Positions 30,388-39,107 of a stretch of 64,000 nucleotides of DNA are shown here, piece by piece (position 1 is the stretch's first letter; each line of letters opens with the position of its first letter). The translations under genes and the position numbers were made by a program. This DNA is from Mesohalobacter halotolerans (GTDB taxonomy: Bacteria; Bacteroidota; Bacteroidia; Flavobacteriales; Flavobacteriaceae), in contig NZ_SWMU01000001.1 in assembly GCF_006120725.1 (NCBI RefSeq), forward strand, positions 806,001 through 870,000. The letters are read 5' to 3'. The notes under the pieces were generated by a model, which saw nothing but the letters and a program-made list of their open reading frames with translations, made no database searches and was not told the origin of the DNA.

Positions 30388-31860
30388 TTATTTTTTTTCG
30401 TCAAATGCTGCAATGGTTTTATACTTCTGTTTTTGGTAAATGTTTTCAATGAGGTTTAAAAATTGATTTTGAAAAATCAATCCTAATAAACCACTTAAAG
30501 CCAAAGTGATAATACCGGCGTCAAAACTGATAAAATAATAAGGTATAAAAAAGATGACAATTGGCCCTAGTATTTTTGGTATGCTAATCAAAAGTTGAGT
30601 CAAATTAAAACCGTTAGTATTTTGAAAGGCTTTGGCTTTGACATTCAATTCAACCGGTACGCGATTAAGTGCACCACCATAAAGTGTTATAAAGGAGTTT
30701 AAGCCGATATTAAATGAAGCACCAGCCAAGATTAATTTGTAAATGTCCCAGCCGAAATACAAATAGGGTAAACTCAGGATAGTAGAGACTGTAACGGCAA
30801 ATACCATTAAAACTAATTTTGATTTTAAGTATTCGCGATAGGGAATATTTTGACTCATCATCAACTTGTAATATTCGCTGTCCCAAGACGGCACCAATTG
30901 TCCAAAGGTTAATAAAAATCCACCGGTGATAAACATAGAGGCAAAAGCTAATATTGCTGGATTGTCACGGTATATTTCAAATGTGTAGAAAAACAATCCG
31001 TAAAATAAGAAGAAAAATGAAGTCAATAAGACTTGTTTAGGTCTAGCATTTCTCAAAATGAGCTTTATGTCATTTTTTAAAAAAGGGGCAATATTGCCAA
31101 ATTTATCTACAAATTTTAAATCTAAGGCTTTAACTTTTTCGGTTTTTTTAGTTATGGCACCATCAATGTAAAAGTGTTTTATATAATATTGATAATTGGC
31201 ATAAAAAGCCAGTCCCATTAACAGTAGAGGTAATAAAATCCAAACAGGATTGGAGTACATGCCGTAAAAAAAGACCTGTGCATAGGCCGTTATATCAAAA
31301 ATTTCATAGCGTTGAAGTCCGATAAACACTAAAACAAGGCCGACAATTAAAAAGAAATAAATGTTGGTTTTATTGATGAGGTAGACGGTGAAATTATTGA
31401 GAAAAATCAAGCTTAAAACCCCAAAAAACCAAGCTGTGACATATAATGGATGATAACCTTTGACAATTAAAGTAATACTAAAAGGAATAAAAAACAATAG
31501 AGGTAAGATATTAAAAAAAGAGGTCATTGTTTTACCCAGTAAAAATTGAACCACTTTTTTTCGTTTAATTGGAATGATTAATAAAGGTTTGATATTAATG
31601 ACAGGCATTTGTTGAATAAAGTACCTGAGACCAAGGTCAAACAAAAACCAGTAAATGAGATATTGGTTAAGCGACATAAGGGGATCAACCTCTGGAATGG
31701 CTTTTTGAAGAATAAAATAACCACCAATACCAGCCAATATAGCGATACCACCAAAATATAAAATACCTAAGACCATCAAAATCTTTATGGCAAGTGCGGC
31801 TTCAAAATAAGAAGATCTTCGGAATTGCTTCCATTGTAGAGACACAAATCGTTTAATCAT
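30388..31860 (-). CDS. DUF5687 family membrane protein (probable ABC permease)
   Basis: A 490-residue polytopic protein with about 12 membrane helices and a short N-terminal cytoplasmic part with SLQWKQFRRSSYF. It contains a cytoplasmic segment with KNDIKLILRNARPKQVLLTS near the middle. The length and the leading WKQFRRS resemble DUF5687, a Bacteroidota family found next to an ABC ATPase. It is upstream of the ATPase by 6 bp. Together they probably form a two-component exporter of unknown substrate. Confidence 0.8.
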   Translation of the reverse strand: MIKRFVSLQWKQFRRSSYFEAALAIKILMVLGILYFGGIAILAGIGGYFILQKAIPEVDPLMSLNQYLIYWFLFDLGLRYFIQQMPVINIKPLLIIPIKRKKVVQFLLGKTMTSFFNILPLLFFIPFSITLIVKGYHPLYVTAWFFGVLSLIFLNNFTVYLINKTNIYFFLIVGLVLVFIGLQRYEIFDITAYAQVFFYGMYSNPVWILLPLLLMGLAFYANYQYYIKHFYIDGAITKKTEKVKALDLKFVDKFGNIAPFLKNDIKLILRNARPKQVLLTSFFFLFYGLFFYTFEIYRDNPAILAFASMFITGGFLLTFGQLVPSWDSEYYKLMMSQNIPYREYLKSKLVLMVFAVTVSTILSLPYLYFGWDIYKLILAGASFNIGLNSFITLYGGALNRVPVELNVKAKAFQNTNGFNLTQLLISIPKILGPIVIFFIPYYFISFDAGIITLALSGLLGLIFQNQFLNLIENIYQKQKYKTIAAFDEKK

Positions 31861-31918
31861 ATTAAAGATTTATTGGTTAGTAAGTTACATTGAATAATTG
31901 TTACAATTTTAAACAAAA

Positions 31919-31948
31919 AAATCCGATTCGAATAGAATCGGATTTTTT
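31919..31948. terminator. Bidirectional terminator, copy 1
   Basis: ATCCGATTC (31921-31929) pairs with GAATCGGAT (31935-31943), a 9-bp stem with a 5-nt loop. A/T runs lie on both sides, so it can work on either strand. The same hairpin follows the intact atpC at 37.2 kb. Confidence 0.8.
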
Positions 31949-31970
31949 ATAAGACTTGAATCGGTAAAAT

Positions 31971-32246
31971 TTAATCTACCAAAACGATCACTTTGTTGTC
32001 TTTGCATTCTACAACGCCACCTTTGATATCGTAAGTCAACTTGTCATGAGTTTCTTTAAAAAACGACTTGGCCTTATCTTCAATATTTACAGTTTTGTCT
32101 AGCTTGATTAAACCCTCATTTAAAGTTGAAACTATAGGCGCATGCTGATTTAAAATTTGAAATTCACCTGTTTTGCCAGGCAAAGTTACAGCATCGACTT
32201 CCTGACTCATTAAAATTTGCTCTGGTGTGACGATTTCTAAATGAAT
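31971..32246 (-). pseudogene. atpC: Duplicate of atpC (ATP synthase epsilon subunit) with ATG changed to ATT
   Basis: The frame encodes the same residues as the intact atpC at 37244-37519 after the start, and the coding differences are synonymous. The start codon reads ATT at 32246-32244 instead of ATG. Translation would need ATT, or an internal ATG at 32210 that would remove the first 12 residues and give 79 aa, losing the first beta strand of the epsilon sandwich. There is no atpD upstream; the neighbour is a 64-residue surface-type gene. I call it a recent, probably non-functional copy. The frame is otherwise open, so it is not strongly decayed. Confidence 0.8.
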
Positions 32247-32316
32247 AGTTTTTTTGTTATCAGGTTTCAGTTATCAGTTTGTAAAAATGAAACCAATTAT
32301 TTGAATAGGAAATAGT

Positions 32317-32399
32317 TCTCGACTCCGCTTGAAAAAACAGTTATAGGGAATATGATACTAAAAGCAACTATCTTACTGCCTCATCGAGTGTAGTCGAGA
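32317..32399. repeat. Spaced inverted repeat in the gap between atpC copy 1 and the 64-aa gene
   Basis: TCTCGACT (32317-32324) and AGTCGAGA (32392-32399) are perfect 8-bp inverted arms 67 bp apart. The right arm is also part of a local imperfect palindrome around ATCGAGTGTAGTCGAGAT. From memory, CTCGACT-type arms are common in flavobacterial intergenic repeats. No ORF is convincing here. Confidence 0.4.
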
Positions 32400-32426
32400 T
32401 GATGCGTGGTTATGCTGGAAATGGAT

Positions 32427-32460
32427 ATAAAAAATCCTGTAATCAATAAGACTACAGGAT
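32427..32460 (-). terminator. Terminator of the surface-protein unit
   Basis: ATCCTGTA (32434-32441) pairs with TACAGGAT (32453-32460). On the minus strand the stem is followed by a T run. It ends the 64-residue gene. A near copy lies at 37138-37169. Confidence 0.75.
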
Positions 32461-32510
32461 GGTTTTTTAAAACCCTATATCAATTAACTCAAGTAATGAT
32501 CAAGAAAGTT

Positions 32511-32705
32511 TTATTTCATTTTTCTGATGCCGTAAACCGCACCGGCGATTAAACCCAAAGCAACTAAAGATGAAATAGGTGCCGGTGAGGTATCATCTTG
32601 TGATTCATCAAAAGGCGGTGGAAGTTGGGCAGAACTTATGGCTGTGACTAATAAAAAGCTCAAAATTAAAATGGTTTTTGATGCCTTAAAATTTGTTATT
32701 TTCAT
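32511..32705 (-). CDS. Small protein with PID-CTERM-like sorting tail, 64 aa
   Basis: A signal peptide (residues 1 to about 26, ending ISSAQ) is followed by a short Pro/Asp/Ser-rich linker (LPPPFDESQDDTSPA). Then come Pro43-Ile44-Ser45, a hydrophobic helix (about 46-60, LVALGLIAGAVYGI) and a basic end RKMK. This three-part tail resembles the PID-CTERM sorting signals of small Bacteroidota proteins, which have been linked to exosortase-like processing. Here Ser replaces the Asp of PID. Almost the whole mature protein is the sorting signal. It lies 91 bp downstream of the 1324-residue T9SS protein gene and before a terminator, so both may be on one transcript. Confidence 0.7.
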   Translation of the reverse strand: MKITNFKASKTILILSFLLVTAISSAQLPPPFDESQDDTSPAPISSLVALGLIAGAVYGIRKMK

Positions 32706-32796
32706 AATAGAAGATTTATTTTATATCCGATAATTTTAATCTTAAAATTAACTACGAAAAGTTATAAAAACCTCGCGTAGTTAAAAAGTTCATGTT

Positions 32797-35700
32797 TTAT
32801 TTAATGATCAATCTTTCTTTTGACGTTTGTCCATTCTGATCGATCTCGATAAAGTAAACACCACTTTGTAAATTGCCTAAATTGACTGTTGTTTTTCCAT
32901 TAGCTTTAAAAGTGCTTCGCTGATTAAACACACGTTGACCCATGATATTATACAATCTTACAGAGGCATCTCCGGTCAAATTAATACTTTGTATGCTTAC
33001 CTGACCATTTCTTACCGGATTAGGATAAATTGTGAAATTGTCAGATAATTCATCATTATTAATGCTGAAAGTATCGATTTCAAAATCTATGCTAAATCTG
33101 TCTGTGGCTATACTTCCAGGAATATTTTGATCTACACTAAAGCTTATTTGGTTACTTCCGTCGTTCAATAAGGTTTGATCGCCGGTATACTGATCTACTA
33201 AATAAGCTTCTACATCATCCGGTAAGTTGTTGTTCGTGATAACAAACGTATAGTCATTTGCTGTAAATCCGTCGGTAAAAAGTTCTAATGATTCACCATC
33301 ACTTGGCAGGCTTCTCTTTTCTATGCTTACCAACTCATCATTTTCATTTCTGGACAGATTTTCATCCGGATTCATCAGTTTATCAGCGTCTTGTATGTTT
33401 ACTGTGTTATCAAATTGGTTATCAAAGTTGATTTGTAAAGCATCAGATTCAAATTTCTGAGCATTGAGATCATCTGTTTTGTATAACTTCAGATTTAATG
33501 AAGTTTGATTATTATCACTGAAAACCGCCGTTGATGTAGCACTCACATCTTTAGATGATTCGGTAAACGTGATATCTGCGGCTCCATTATTGACGGTTTG
33601 TACAAAGAAAGATTGTCCCGGCATGACGAATTGATCAGCCGCTGATGAAGAAGCACCGCCAGCTGGCGTTTGGCTATCTCCGGTTGATAGATCTACCGCT
33701 ACATAAGCTCCACGCGTGCTCATATTCGGATCCCAAACCCAATAGAAATTGGTGTTGATATTTGTCGAGCTCACATCATTGATATTGACAATGGCCTGAT
33801 AAGGATTACCCACAAAACTGAACAAGTCCTGATTCGGATTTAAGCTAAACGTCTGATTTCCAACAGCTAGGTCACCGGTGGCGCGTAAAGTTACATCAGT
33901 ATTTGGAGCATCAGCCGGATCAGAGTCTAAATCGTAATTTCTATCACCGCGGATAAAAACAAGGTAAGCTTTTCCGGCATCAAGTTTAGTTGGATCTGTA
34001 TCACTTATAGGACTCCAGGCATCATCTGCTACGGTATAGGAATTATCAAATTCATACATGGATGGATTGCCGGAAATACTGACATCAAAGCCATTAGCGC
34101 CAGAAGAAGAGCCGGTGATATGGGTGCCAAACCCGGCCGGGGAATTACCACTTTCCTGCCAGTTATCATAAATAGGATCTGTTGAATTAACAGCGGAAGT
34201 TAGAAATCTAAACCCTCTGGTGACTTCTGTTGCCACTGGAATGAAACGTTCTACAGTGACATCACCTGTACCGGTAATTGATCCACTAAAGTCATCTAGC
34301 TGTGCTGAACCATTTGTATCGCTGGTAAATAGTATTGTGCCATCATTAGTAATGTCACCGTCAAGTTCTAATACAGCAGAAGCCCCTAATTCTAAAGTTG
34401 CACCGGAACTTATACTTAAATTATTGCCTTGAATTACACCATTAAGTACGGCAGTTCCAGCTAATACCTCAATTTCATCAGCAGAAGTTGATGCCGGTGT
34501 TCCGGTAACAGGGTTGGTATTCCAACCAGTTGTATCGTCAGTATAGGTGTAAGTTGGTGGAGCTTCGACGCTTATATTATCAAAATAATAAAATTCAGAA
34601 CCAGCATTATTAAGTACTTTAATCACTATCTTAAGTGTACTATTTGAAAGCCCTGTAAGTGATTCGGAATCTGTAATTGTACCGGTTATTTCTCCATCAT
34701 GCTTAGTAATAGTAGTAAAACTTCCTCCATCAAGTACATATCCAGTTTCTATATAGTCACTAGATTCTAGTTCTCCAATTACTGAGCTAACATCAATGGT
34801 AATATCTACATCTGTTTCCCCTGAAATGTCAATTACCGGTGAATTCCAAACCTGCTCATCATCAACATCTCTTGCACTAAACTCTTCATTTTCTACACGG
34901 AACCAATCTGATGATGCACCTAAACCACTCTCAATAATGTCTAAGGTCCAATCAACACCTGTCAAATCAAAACTAACTGTACTACCACCTGTTGCTCCTT
35001 TGCCGTTTTGACCCGTGAAATCTTCAGAATAAGGAAATGTAGCAAGATCATTTACATCATAACTCTGCTCAGTGGAAGTTGTTGTTTCCGGTTCATCATC
35101 AGTAGCTGCTATTTCATAATAAACCGTGGTTCCATCAGATTGTGCCGGAATATCAGAATCTGTTTCATACGTATCGCCTGATGTGTTAGACATGTTAATG
35201 GTATTCCCCAAACTACCGGATGTTGTACCCCAATTAAGCTCAACATTGTTGATCGTTCCATCCGAATCTGTTACATCAGCAGATACAGTTACTGCATCAG
35301 ATGATGTAATGCCAGTGGCCGGAGTTTGTGTAATATTTGATATAGAAGGAGGTATATTTGCACCTGCTGCGATAGCTTGTAAATCAAAATCAGTTATCGT
35401 CCATTCAGAACAACCTACTGAAGAAAAAACATACTTAAATGCGACATAAACCTGGTTGCCTGAGACACCTTGAAGTGAAGTATTGTTACTTTCTGTTCCG
35501 GCATTTCCTGACGTTATAGTTGTAATTGTAGTCCAGTTAGCATTATTAGGATCGCCAGTCCCACTATAATCTGTTGAATAAAGAACCTCCAGATCTGTAC
35601 CACTAAACCCTTCGCTGGTTGTAAAGCTTAATTCTTCATTATTGTATGAATCTAAATCAAAGAATGGCGTTATTAACCAGTCTTCATTAATTTGACAGCC

Positions 35701-36771
35701 ACTGTTAAATGCATTCATTTGTGCACCCGAACCTGTGTATTCCCATTGTTCTGCACCTGAAACGCTAAATTGCTGCCAGTCGTTATTGAAAGGATCATTT
35801 GTAAAGTCAAATGAGTAAGGTAAAGTTGTTGCTGTTATTTCATCATCTACTACAGTAAGCGTATGCTGGTCAGGATTAATAGTTATTCCGGTTGATGTGG
35901 TTTCTGCAATATCTAAAATGATGGTTTCATCATCGCTATCGGCATCATCATTAATGTCGAGTGAAATATTTTGAGTTGCGTTTCCTGTAAAACTTAAAGA
36001 AGTTGTATTTAAAGTATAATCTCCTGATTCAGCTGTAGTACTGCTTCCATTAACAGAAACACTTAGGTCAACATTAGAGCTAAAGTTGCTTAAGGTTACC
36101 GGTATACTGACACTAAAGGTACTGTTAGTTTCGTTTTCTGTGCTTGAGGTAGCATCGAAACCAACGGTTGGTGTTGAACCTGAGGCCGTTCCGGTAAGAC
36201 GAAAATTATCAAATCCAGATTCACCACTTCCGCCGTTATTCTCTATGATAATTTCTAAACGAATATCATCGACGGTATCGGGAACATTAACGCTTACTGA
36301 ACCTTCTGAATCATCTCCGGGAGTAGAGCCTGTTTGAAGTACAACGCGTCCTTGACCAACACCATCGTAAAAAAGTTCATAATGTACTTCGTCTGAATTC
36401 GCATTATAGCCTTCTACATCATAATCAAAACTAAGATTTACACCAGTATAAGTAGAAATATCCGTAGAGGTAGTCAAGCTTGGAAAAGAAATTATTGCCT
36501 CTCCAGACGTTCCACATGAAGATTCTAAGTCTTGCTCTGATAAGATATTTGTAGATAATTGAGCTAAATCTAAACCAGTGGCACTTACATCTCTTATTCC
36601 CAAGAAGTCAGAGCCACTATTACAGTCAAAAAATGGAATGTCAGATTCATAATTCCATGTTGAAGCAGCATCAAAGTCTTGTTCTACTATAGTAGTCTGC
36701 CCAAAACTCAGACCTGTAGCCAGGAATGTTAGTAAGCCAAATAATATGGATTTGAAATAAAGTGTTTTCAT
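32797..36771 (-). CDS. T9SS-exported multidomain surface protein, 1324 aa
   Basis: A signal peptide (about 1-24, ending SFGQ) is followed by low-complexity Ser/Thr/Asp-rich beta domains. A Calx-beta-like block lies near residues 200-310 (SVSIPVTLSNFSSNVDL, DADSDDETIILDI), then a choice-of-anchor J-type block (NEDWLITPFFDLDSYNNEEL, about 365-385). The last 80 residues form a type A T9SS sorting domain: NFTIYPNPVRNGQVSIQ, LYNIMGQRVF and LQSGVYFIEI, ending RLIIK. It is therefore probably secreted by type IX and attached to the surface. Ligand or adhesion role is unknown. By eye it is less AT-rich than its neighbours, and it lies between two copies of atpC. Confidence 0.88.
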   Translation of the reverse strand: MKTLYFKSILFGLLTFLATGLSFGQTTIVEQDFDAASTWNYESDIPFFDCNSGSDFLGIRDVSATGLDLAQLSTNILSEQDLESSCGTSGEAIISFPSLTTSTDISTYTGVNLSFDYDVEGYNANSDEVHYELFYDGVGQGRVVLQTGSTPGDDSEGSVSVNVPDTVDDIRLEIIIENNGGSGESGFDNFRLTGTASGSTPTVGFDATSSTENETNSTFSVSIPVTLSNFSSNVDLSVSVNGSSTTAESGDYTLNTTSLSFTGNATQNISLDINDDADSDDETIILDIAETTSTGITINPDQHTLTVVDDEITATTLPYSFDFTNDPFNNDWQQFSVSGAEQWEYTGSGAQMNAFNSGCQINEDWLITPFFDLDSYNNEELSFTTSEGFSGTDLEVLYSTDYSGTGDPNNANWTTITTITSGNAGTESNNTSLQGVSGNQVYVAFKYVFSSVGCSEWTITDFDLQAIAAGANIPPSISNITQTPATGITSSDAVTVSADVTDSDGTINNVELNWGTTSGSLGNTINMSNTSGDTYETDSDIPAQSDGTTVYYEIAATDDEPETTTSTEQSYDVNDLATFPYSEDFTGQNGKGATGGSTVSFDLTGVDWTLDIIESGLGASSDWFRVENEEFSARDVDDEQVWNSPVIDISGETDVDITIDVSSVIGELESSDYIETGYVLDGGSFTTITKHDGEITGTITDSESLTGLSNSTLKIVIKVLNNAGSEFYYFDNISVEAPPTYTYTDDTTGWNTNPVTGTPASTSADEIEVLAGTAVLNGVIQGNNLSISSGATLELGASAVLELDGDITNDGTILFTSDTNGSAQLDDFSGSITGTGDVTVERFIPVATEVTRGFRFLTSAVNSTDPIYDNWQESGNSPAGFGTHITGSSSGANGFDVSISGNPSMYEFDNSYTVADDAWSPISDTDPTKLDAGKAYLVFIRGDRNYDLDSDPADAPNTDVTLRATGDLAVGNQTFSLNPNQDLFSFVGNPYQAIVNINDVSSTNINTNFYWVWDPNMSTRGAYVAVDLSTGDSQTPAGGASSSAADQFVMPGQSFFVQTVNNGAADITFTESSKDVSATSTAVFSDNNQTSLNLKLYKTDDLNAQKFESDALQINFDNQFDNTVNIQDADKLMNPDENLSRNENDELVSIEKRSLPSDGESLELFTDGFTANDYTFVITNNNLPDDVEAYLVDQYTGDQTLLNDGSNQISFSVDQNIPGSIATDRFSIDFEIDTFSINNDELSDNFTIYPNPVRNGQVSIQSINLTGDASVRLYNIMGQRVFNQRSTFKANGKTTVNLGNLQSGVYFIEIDQNGQTSKERLIIK

Positions 36772-37184
36772 AATAGATAATTTTTTTTTAAAATTATTGA
36801 AATTATGATTTAAAAAATCAATCTACATTTTAAATTAAAGTAAAATCTTAGTGATTAAGTTATAATTTATTTGTATTTTAAAATTAATTGTGTTAACTCT
36901 CTATTAATAACAACCCCTCAGACTTAATGGATTAAGGCACTTTATGATCTTTAAGCCTCTACTTTGACATCAATGAAATTTATTGCGGCCCTAAAGCTTT
37001 TGCAAATCTGTAACTAACTCAATTACAGATTAATCTGCCCTCCGTAAGCGATTGTTATTTTAGATGGCATTAATTGACTTGCCCTAAGGCACAAGTCTGG
37101 GAAGTTGCTTAGTTAAAATAAATCACTATCATAAAAAATCCTGTAATCATAAAGACATGACTACAGGATAATGGTATAATTGAC
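36772..37184. other. 413-bp gap upstream of the surface-protein gene, no convincing gene
   Basis: No ORF longer than about 30 codons looks coding. The left part is very AT-rich. The right part (about 36900-37110) is less AT-rich and has hairpins: AATCTGTAA (37005-37013) with TTACAGATT (37023-37031), and GACTTG (37076-37081) with CAAGTC (37092-37097). CAGATTAATCTG (37026-37037) is a perfect palindrome overlapping the first hairpin. It may hold a promoter, a structured leader or a decayed element. Confidence 0.5.
37131..37169 (-). terminator. Hairpin terminator without an adjacent gene, near copy of the one at 32.43 kb
   Basis: ATCCTGTA (37138-37145) pairs with TACAGGAT (37162-37169); on the minus strand a T run follows. 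The stem and flanking AAAAAATCCTGTAATCA are the same as at 32.43 kb, but the loop is longer. atpC already has its own terminator 25 bp upstream. Confidence 0.6.
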
Positions 37185-37187
37185 AAC

Positions 37188-37222
37188 AAAAAAATCCGAT
37201 TCGAACAGAATCGGATTTTTTA
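37188..37222. terminator. Bidirectional terminator after atpC
   Basis: ATCCGATTC (37194-37202) pairs with GAATCGGAT (37208-37216), with A/T runs on both sides. It ends the atpD-atpC transcript. Confidence 0.8.
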
Positions 37223-37243
37223 TAAGAGTTGAATCGGTAAAAT

Positions 37244-37519
37244 TTAATCTACCAAAACGATCACTTTGTTGTCTTTGCATTCTACAACGCCACCTTTGAT
37301 ATCGTAAGTCAACTTGTCATGAGTTTCTTTAAAAAACGACTTGGCCTTATCTTCAATATTTACAGTTTTGTCTAGCTTGATTAAACCCTCATTTAAAGTT
37401 GAAACTATAGGAGCATGCTGATTTAAAATTTGAAATTCACCTGTTTTGCCGGGCAAAGTTACAGCATCGACTTCCTGACTCATTAAAATTTGCTCTGGTG
37501 TGACGATTTCTAAATGCAT
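37244..37519 (-). CDS. atpC: ATP synthase F1 epsilon subunit
   Basis: The 91-residue protein is the beta-sandwich domain of F1 epsilon: MHLEIVTPEQILMSQEVDAV, GEFQILNQHAPIVSTLNEG and the ending VIVLVD. The C-terminal helical domain found in longer epsilon subunits is absent, as is usual for Bacteroidota. Epsilon joins gamma to the c-ring in the rotary ATP synthase on the cytoplasmic face of the inner membrane. It follows atpD by 73 bp. The other ATP synthase genes are not in the window. It is the intact member of a duplicated pair. Confidence 0.93.
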   Translation of the reverse strand: MHLEIVTPEQILMSQEVDAVTLPGKTGEFQILNQHAPIVSTLNEGLIKLDKTVNIEDKAKSFFKETHDKLTYDIKGGVVECKDNKVIVLVD

Positions 37520-37592
37520 AGTTTTTTTGTTATCAGGTTTCAGTTATCAGTTTTCAGTGATTCAGTTTTAATTTACTGATAAAGCAGATATA

Positions 37593-39107
<1,515 letters not shown>

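Follow-up and report, generated by a model that had tools for sequence, protein, structure and literature searches.

A surface-protein gene pair inserted between two copies of atpC in Mesohalobacter halotolerans

How did the end of the atpD-atpC operon of Mesohalobacter halotolerans come to carry atpC twice, with a surface-protein operon between the copies, and is the arrangement a genetic switch? The question is posed by a window of 64,000 nucleotides (the whole stretch of DNA that was analysed), in which the minus strand reads atpD, a first repeat copy (R1) with an intact atpC, a terminator-like hairpin, a T9SS gene, a PID-CTERM-like gene, a second terminator-like hairpin, a second repeat copy (R2) with an atpC that starts with ATT, a DUF5687 gene and an ABC gene (Table 1). 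The preliminary description had reported a 369-bp duplication including the full atpC frame and its terminator, with the intact copy abutting atpD and the other cut off by about 5 kb, and this was confirmed by an ungapped comparison, which gave direct repeats with five mismatches (pairs 31933/37206, 31955/37228, 32139/37412, 32178/37451 and 32244/37517), no indels and 98.6% identity, the intervening stretch being 4,904 bp. Identity falls off immediately beyond either repeat end in the same comparison, and both repeat finding and self-BLAST recovered the same pair, each copy extending from the atpD-atpC spacer through the whole of atpC to just beyond the terminator.

When the repeat was used in a DNA search of the window's own assembly (2,651,256 bases, 11 contigs), two full-length places were found, both in the window, and no third, with two additional short matches to the terminator palindrome on the opposite strand. 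Judged by its length and identity, a chance origin of the pair can be taken as excluded. As a control, direct repeats of at least 150 bp and at least 93% identity, more than 1.5 kb apart, were sought in 55 stretches (1,006,947 bases), a non-random set mostly picked around T9SS/PID modules; these gave the window's pair and otherwise only copies of T9SS/PID modules in two stretches (L117 and L127). The motif TTATCAGTTT, with which the repeat had been said to end and which had been described as repeated next to it and as possible microhomology, is indeed present, but once per copy, and what recurs in the neighbourhood is the shorter TTATCAG.

Table 1. Features of the duplicated atpC locus (coordinates of the window)
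Feature	Coordinates	Strand	Basis
DUF5687 gene, native flank	30388..31860	-	PF18940 E 4e-182; adjoins atpC in L035-L038
Repeat copy R2: spacer, atpC and terminator; adjoins DUF5687	31912..32280	-	sequence comparison; outer flank aligns to empty site
atpC terminator hairpin in R2	31916..31948	-	
Second atpC, protein identical after first codon, start ATT, probable dying copy	31971..32246	-	repeat comparison; ATG in all relatives
Inserted segment, 4,904 bp, absent from four empty sites	32281..37184	-	empty-site comparison; single copy in genome
Terminator-like hairpin after PID-CTERM-like gene	32434..32460	-	stem same as 37138-37169
64-aa PID-CTERM-like protein	32511..32705	-	NF046080 E 0.001, 18.9 bits, below cut-off 26
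1324-aa protein, type A T9SS sorting domain	32797..36771	-	TIGR04183 and PF18962 at C-terminus
Terminator-like hairpin, R1 end of insert	37138..37169	-	stem same as 32434-32460
Repeat copy R1: spacer, atpC and terminator; adjoins atpD	37185..37553	-	sequence comparison; outer flank aligns to empty site
atpC terminator hairpin in R1	37189..37221	-	
atpC, F1 epsilon subunit, 91 aa, ATG start, probable working copy	37244..37519	-	ORF; PF02823 E 5.2e-20
atpD, F1 beta subunit, native flank	37593..39104	-	ORF; 94.8-97.4% identical in four relatives

The state of the locus before the event can be read from its relatives, where a search for empty sites had been proposed at the outset. Four same-genus genomes have such a site, in which atpD, a single atpC, DUF5687 and the ABC gene follow one another, and the window's joined flanks align there over the spacer, atpC, the terminator and the start of DUF5687. 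This ancestral arrangement, one atpC and no insert, was seen in L006-L009 and L035-L038, with the order glmS-atpD-atpC-DUF5687-ABC in L035, L036 and L037, and likewise in L038 but without a glmS match. Among the 29 atpC loci read in other genomes, four have DUF5687 directly after atpC. An atpC match was present in 57 of the 60 relatives searched (own genome included), twice in the genome of the window and once in each of the other 56, and was missing from three. None of the four relatives has the insert at its empty site; the sequence outside either repeat is native, and the doubling covers the atpC segment and nothing more. Since there are four empty sites to which the joined flanks align, the 4,904 bp were gained in the window's lineage together with the duplication of the target gene.

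The two atpC copies bear on the age of this event and on its consequences. Both repeats hold a 91-codon atpC frame, and apart from the ATT start in R2 the other two coding differences are silent, as the preliminary description had it. The copies give a dN of 0 and a dS of 0.037, whereas the dS to the atpC of the nearest relative is 1.5-1.6, a nearly saturated value. The earlier idea of a recent insertion at the end of atpDC is upheld as to the insertion by the four empty sites; as to its date, the copies are either fairly recent or have been kept alike by gene conversion, which could make their apparent age younger than the real one. On these alignments, an insertion with duplication of its target gene can be regarded as real, well placed and fairly recent. 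As ATG is the start codon of atpC in all four relatives, ATG is ancestral and ATT derived. At one silent site the nearest relative agrees with R2, and at the other two relatives agree with R1, one with R2 and one with neither. In losing its start the far atpC has thus undergone at least one change that is clearly derived. With atpD distant and a terminator-like hairpin ahead of it, it would be little used or dead; it is probably decaying, and the atpC adjoining atpD is probably the working copy. The fate of a spare housekeeping gene can be followed here, with the start codon gone and the working copy intact.

What was inserted is one transcription unit, for a T9SS type A protein and a PID-CTERM-like protein, and apart from these two no coding-strand ORF in the insert reaches 60 aa. 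The T9SS protein anticipated earlier stands, with TIGR04183 at 53.6 bits against a cut-off of 23 and PF18962 at 51.3 against 27; the match of its PID-CTERM-like companion stays below the cut-off, and it is because NF046080 reaches 18.9 bits, short of 26, that the 64-aa protein is termed only PID-CTERM-like. Set beside the known pairing of a T9SS type A gene (TIGR04183/PF18962) with an NF046080 partner, the window's unit is alike in its C-terminal sorting domain above cut-off and in the partner directly downstream, and differs in that the PID-CTERM match falls below the curated cut-off. Profile searches with the products of both insert genes detected no recombinase, transposase or integrase domain. 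The sole DNA match of the insert in the rest of its own genome is a weak one of 128 bp at 69%, and its G+C content says little (36.9%; remainder of the window, 34.2%). The notion of a reversible surface-protein locus found no support and is not needed: the repeats would let the cassette be lost in one direction, but it has no recombinase gene and the far atpC has lost its ATG. The locus has the look of a commonplace accident of recombination and not of a genetic switch; it adds one more case to a kind of event already known and reveals no new mechanism.

The explanation we favour, to which we give about an even chance, is a Campbell-type integration by single crossover of a circularised fragment carrying atpC and the unit. 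A fragment with atpC and its terminator joined to the T9SS/PID-CTERM surface-protein transcription unit would have circularised by end joining prior to recombination, and a single homologous crossover within atpC would then have integrated the circle at the atpC locus. The copy joined to atpD would have remained functional, the far copy, off the operon and behind a terminator, would decay, and the inserted unit would persist as an extra surface-protein operon that recombination between the repeats could delete in one step. We infer that the intermediate was a circle, that the donor belonged to the same species or one very close to it and had the unit beside atpC, and that the DNA came in by transformation or in some other way. 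In favour of this reading, each outer edge of the insert has a copy of the duplicated piece, the arrangement that a single crossover must leave: the target segment stands in direct copies on either side, and the ancestral locus has one atpC and no insert. The genome has DNA-uptake genes, a ComEC-type match and DprA, each of them also above cut-off in 10 of 14 control genomes. If read in this way, the locus is a clean, datable case of the gain of a surface-protein operon, in which the empty site, the homology of the donor segment and the decaying spare gene are all readable.

The closest documented parallel to the window's anatomy is the integration of a linearised molecule at E. coli lacZ, where 56 of 60 selected clones gave a PCR product diagnostic of duplication, and 14 sequenced integrants had target duplications of 109-950 bp that were ascribed to recircularisation and a single crossover (PMC3240628). 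In both systems direct copies of the target flank the insert, and the range in E. coli spans the 369 bp found here; the difference is that, as that text describes it, donor and selection were supplied, whereas intermediate and donor are inferred in the window (PMC3240628). Homology-facilitated illegitimate recombination, as described in the same text, is similar in combining one homologous with one illegitimate joint, and differs in that insertion there goes with a deletion of similar size, whereas the target is duplicated in the window (PMC3240628). A literature search for an insert between duplicated atpC copies returned nothing. Plasmid records, searched for a circular or donor molecule, held only distant T9SS relatives on two Hymenobacter plasmids (23-25% identity) and four distant cases of atpC (34-46% identity), and the T9SS part had no match in viral contigs. 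These negatives count against the single crossover, and so do three more points: no T9SS or PID match lies within 1.5 kb of atpC in any of the 29 atpC loci of other genomes, the nested terminator-like hairpins at the insert ends are left unexplained, and the junctions alone fit template switching as well.

Template switching during replication is possible, if doubtful. A fork would have copied atpC, jumped to a distant surface-protein unit, returned upstream of atpC and copied atpC again, which yields the same anatomy in one event and needs neither a circle nor a donor bearing atpC. The repeat edges suit this reading, as one falls within a short ACTGATAACTGA-type tract and the other directly after a T-run; the window has two exact ACTGATAACTGA-type sites, both inside the repeats, and two relatives (L006 and L007) have such a tract in their atpD-atpC spacer as well. 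Against it speaks the absence of any source for the insert elsewhere in the genome beyond the weak match already given, from which it follows that the template would have been foreign or since lost. We think it unlikely that the locus arose by unequal exchange within the species between an empty allele and a cassette-bearing one whose single atpC has the unit downstream. Such an exchange also gives the order atpD-atpC-unit-atpC-DUF5687, and the five differences between the copies would be strain polymorphism, but it requires a prior simple insertion, which was seen in none of the examined genomes.

It appears quite improbable that atpC and its terminator form a recurrent recombination handle in the family, here bracketing a surface-protein unit that cells could gain or lose. 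If that were true, T9SS/PID-CTERM units would spread between strains by riding on the homology of a housekeeping gene. Among 397 family genomes, 387 had an atpC match and four had two. In G303 and G387 the two loci are identical and 99.9% identical, respectively, over the whole 3.3 kb and lie at opposite ends of a single contig, and for this reason they are probably assembly overlap. G065 is a true second case of an extra atpC, independent of the window and the only other one among the 397. Its copies (L134:1347-1693 and L135:12209-12557) share about 362 bp at 91%, including the last approximately 50 bp of atpD; a separate 78-bp match covers the terminator, and the roughly 157 bp between the matches partly resemble a second place in the genome. 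The extra copy lies on another contig with its frame intact, its neighbours being genes of a beta-lactamase fold and a thioredoxin fold, and no T9SS module was found in the 15 kb examined around it. With a dN of 0.058 and a dS of 0.26 between the copies, selection may have preserved the extra atpC, or a relative may have supplied it. A count of two true cases in 387, made without a control gene, does not show a special status for atpC.

A site-specific mobile element that targets and regenerates atpC, like the islands at tRNA genes, has a very slim chance of being the answer. In its favour, the target gene is made whole again by the insert, whose two ends bear hairpins sharing one stem, and G065 has its independent extra atpC. 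Like target-regenerating islands of the tRNA type, the window has a complete copy of the target gene at the native promoter side; it differs from them in having no integrase, two genes only and a repeat far longer than the usual core, 369 bp being long for an attachment core. The extra atpC of G065 comes without a T9SS/PID module, and no such module stands beside atpC in the 29 other loci. Duplicated neighbours were also looked for around 63 T9SS/PID intervals in 41 stretches, with T9SS hits mostly over the C-terminal half only and no T9SS/PID hit in L088. Eleven intervals were flagged: one in the window, two in L115, three in L116, one in L125 and four in L127. Copies of an IS1595-type transposase beside the repeats explain the flags in L115, and L116, L125 and L127 are arrays in which module parts or upstream regions themselves repeat. 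A duplicated foreign neighbour gene occurred in none of the 62 other intervals, a result that is weak near contig ends (several stretches of G006 and G020), and general bracketing of the module by duplicated neighbours was rejected on this count. Since the insert has no recombinase and those 62 intervals have no duplicated neighbour gene, an element driven by a recombinase is unlikely.

The hairpins at the insert ends are both minus-strand, terminator-like and followed by T, and among 27 genus genomes their exact stem pattern occurs only at these two places. Hairpin ends of this sort resemble IS200/IS605-like elements, which are not known to duplicate their target; such an element was rejected as the main reading, as the hairpins are terminator-like with a following T and no transposase is present. 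An origin of the hairpins from a module array was also considered; the stem pattern was found in 12 of 133 loci, all of them stretches of this window region. A dispersed repeat family beside R2 (32281-32426) was discarded because the genome has just two sites with its TCGAG-type pattern. All Rfam matches over 31800-37700 were below threshold. An assembly artefact or strain mixture is the least probable explanation of all, for although the draft has 11 contigs and a 369-bp repeat exceeds short reads, the copies differ at five scattered positions, the structure sits inside a 963-kb contig and the contamination estimate is 0.14%.

The broader story is that of the T9SS/PID-CTERM pair, which recurs dispersed and in arrays across the genus. 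A search of the available literature library for PID-CTERM brought up no paper. All 27 genus genomes have relatives of the large protein, mostly matched over the C-terminal half, and 22 have relatives of the small one. In stretches that were themselves picked by such hits, 28 of the 31 intervals outside the window bearing a small-protein match have a T9SS match at most 600 bp away, and because the two are paired in this way they can be considered a recurring two-gene module, either solitary or in arrays. Arrays of T9SS modules were seen in L127 (G011) and also in L116 (G025) and L125 (G021). The repeated parts in L127 are C-terminal ends that are near-identical, PID-CTERM-like genes and a third ORF, of membrane type and 50 aa, and the large genes diverge upstream, as if recombination had shuffled surface proteins. 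The window's genome has a second T9SS/PID-CTERM-like pair (G000:C1:694898-696812, L069) with one TGA within the matched stretch, and in L084 (G010, 2080000-2099500) a T9SS relative, possibly a broken copy, lies in several overlapping matched pieces beside a PID-CTERM-like gene.
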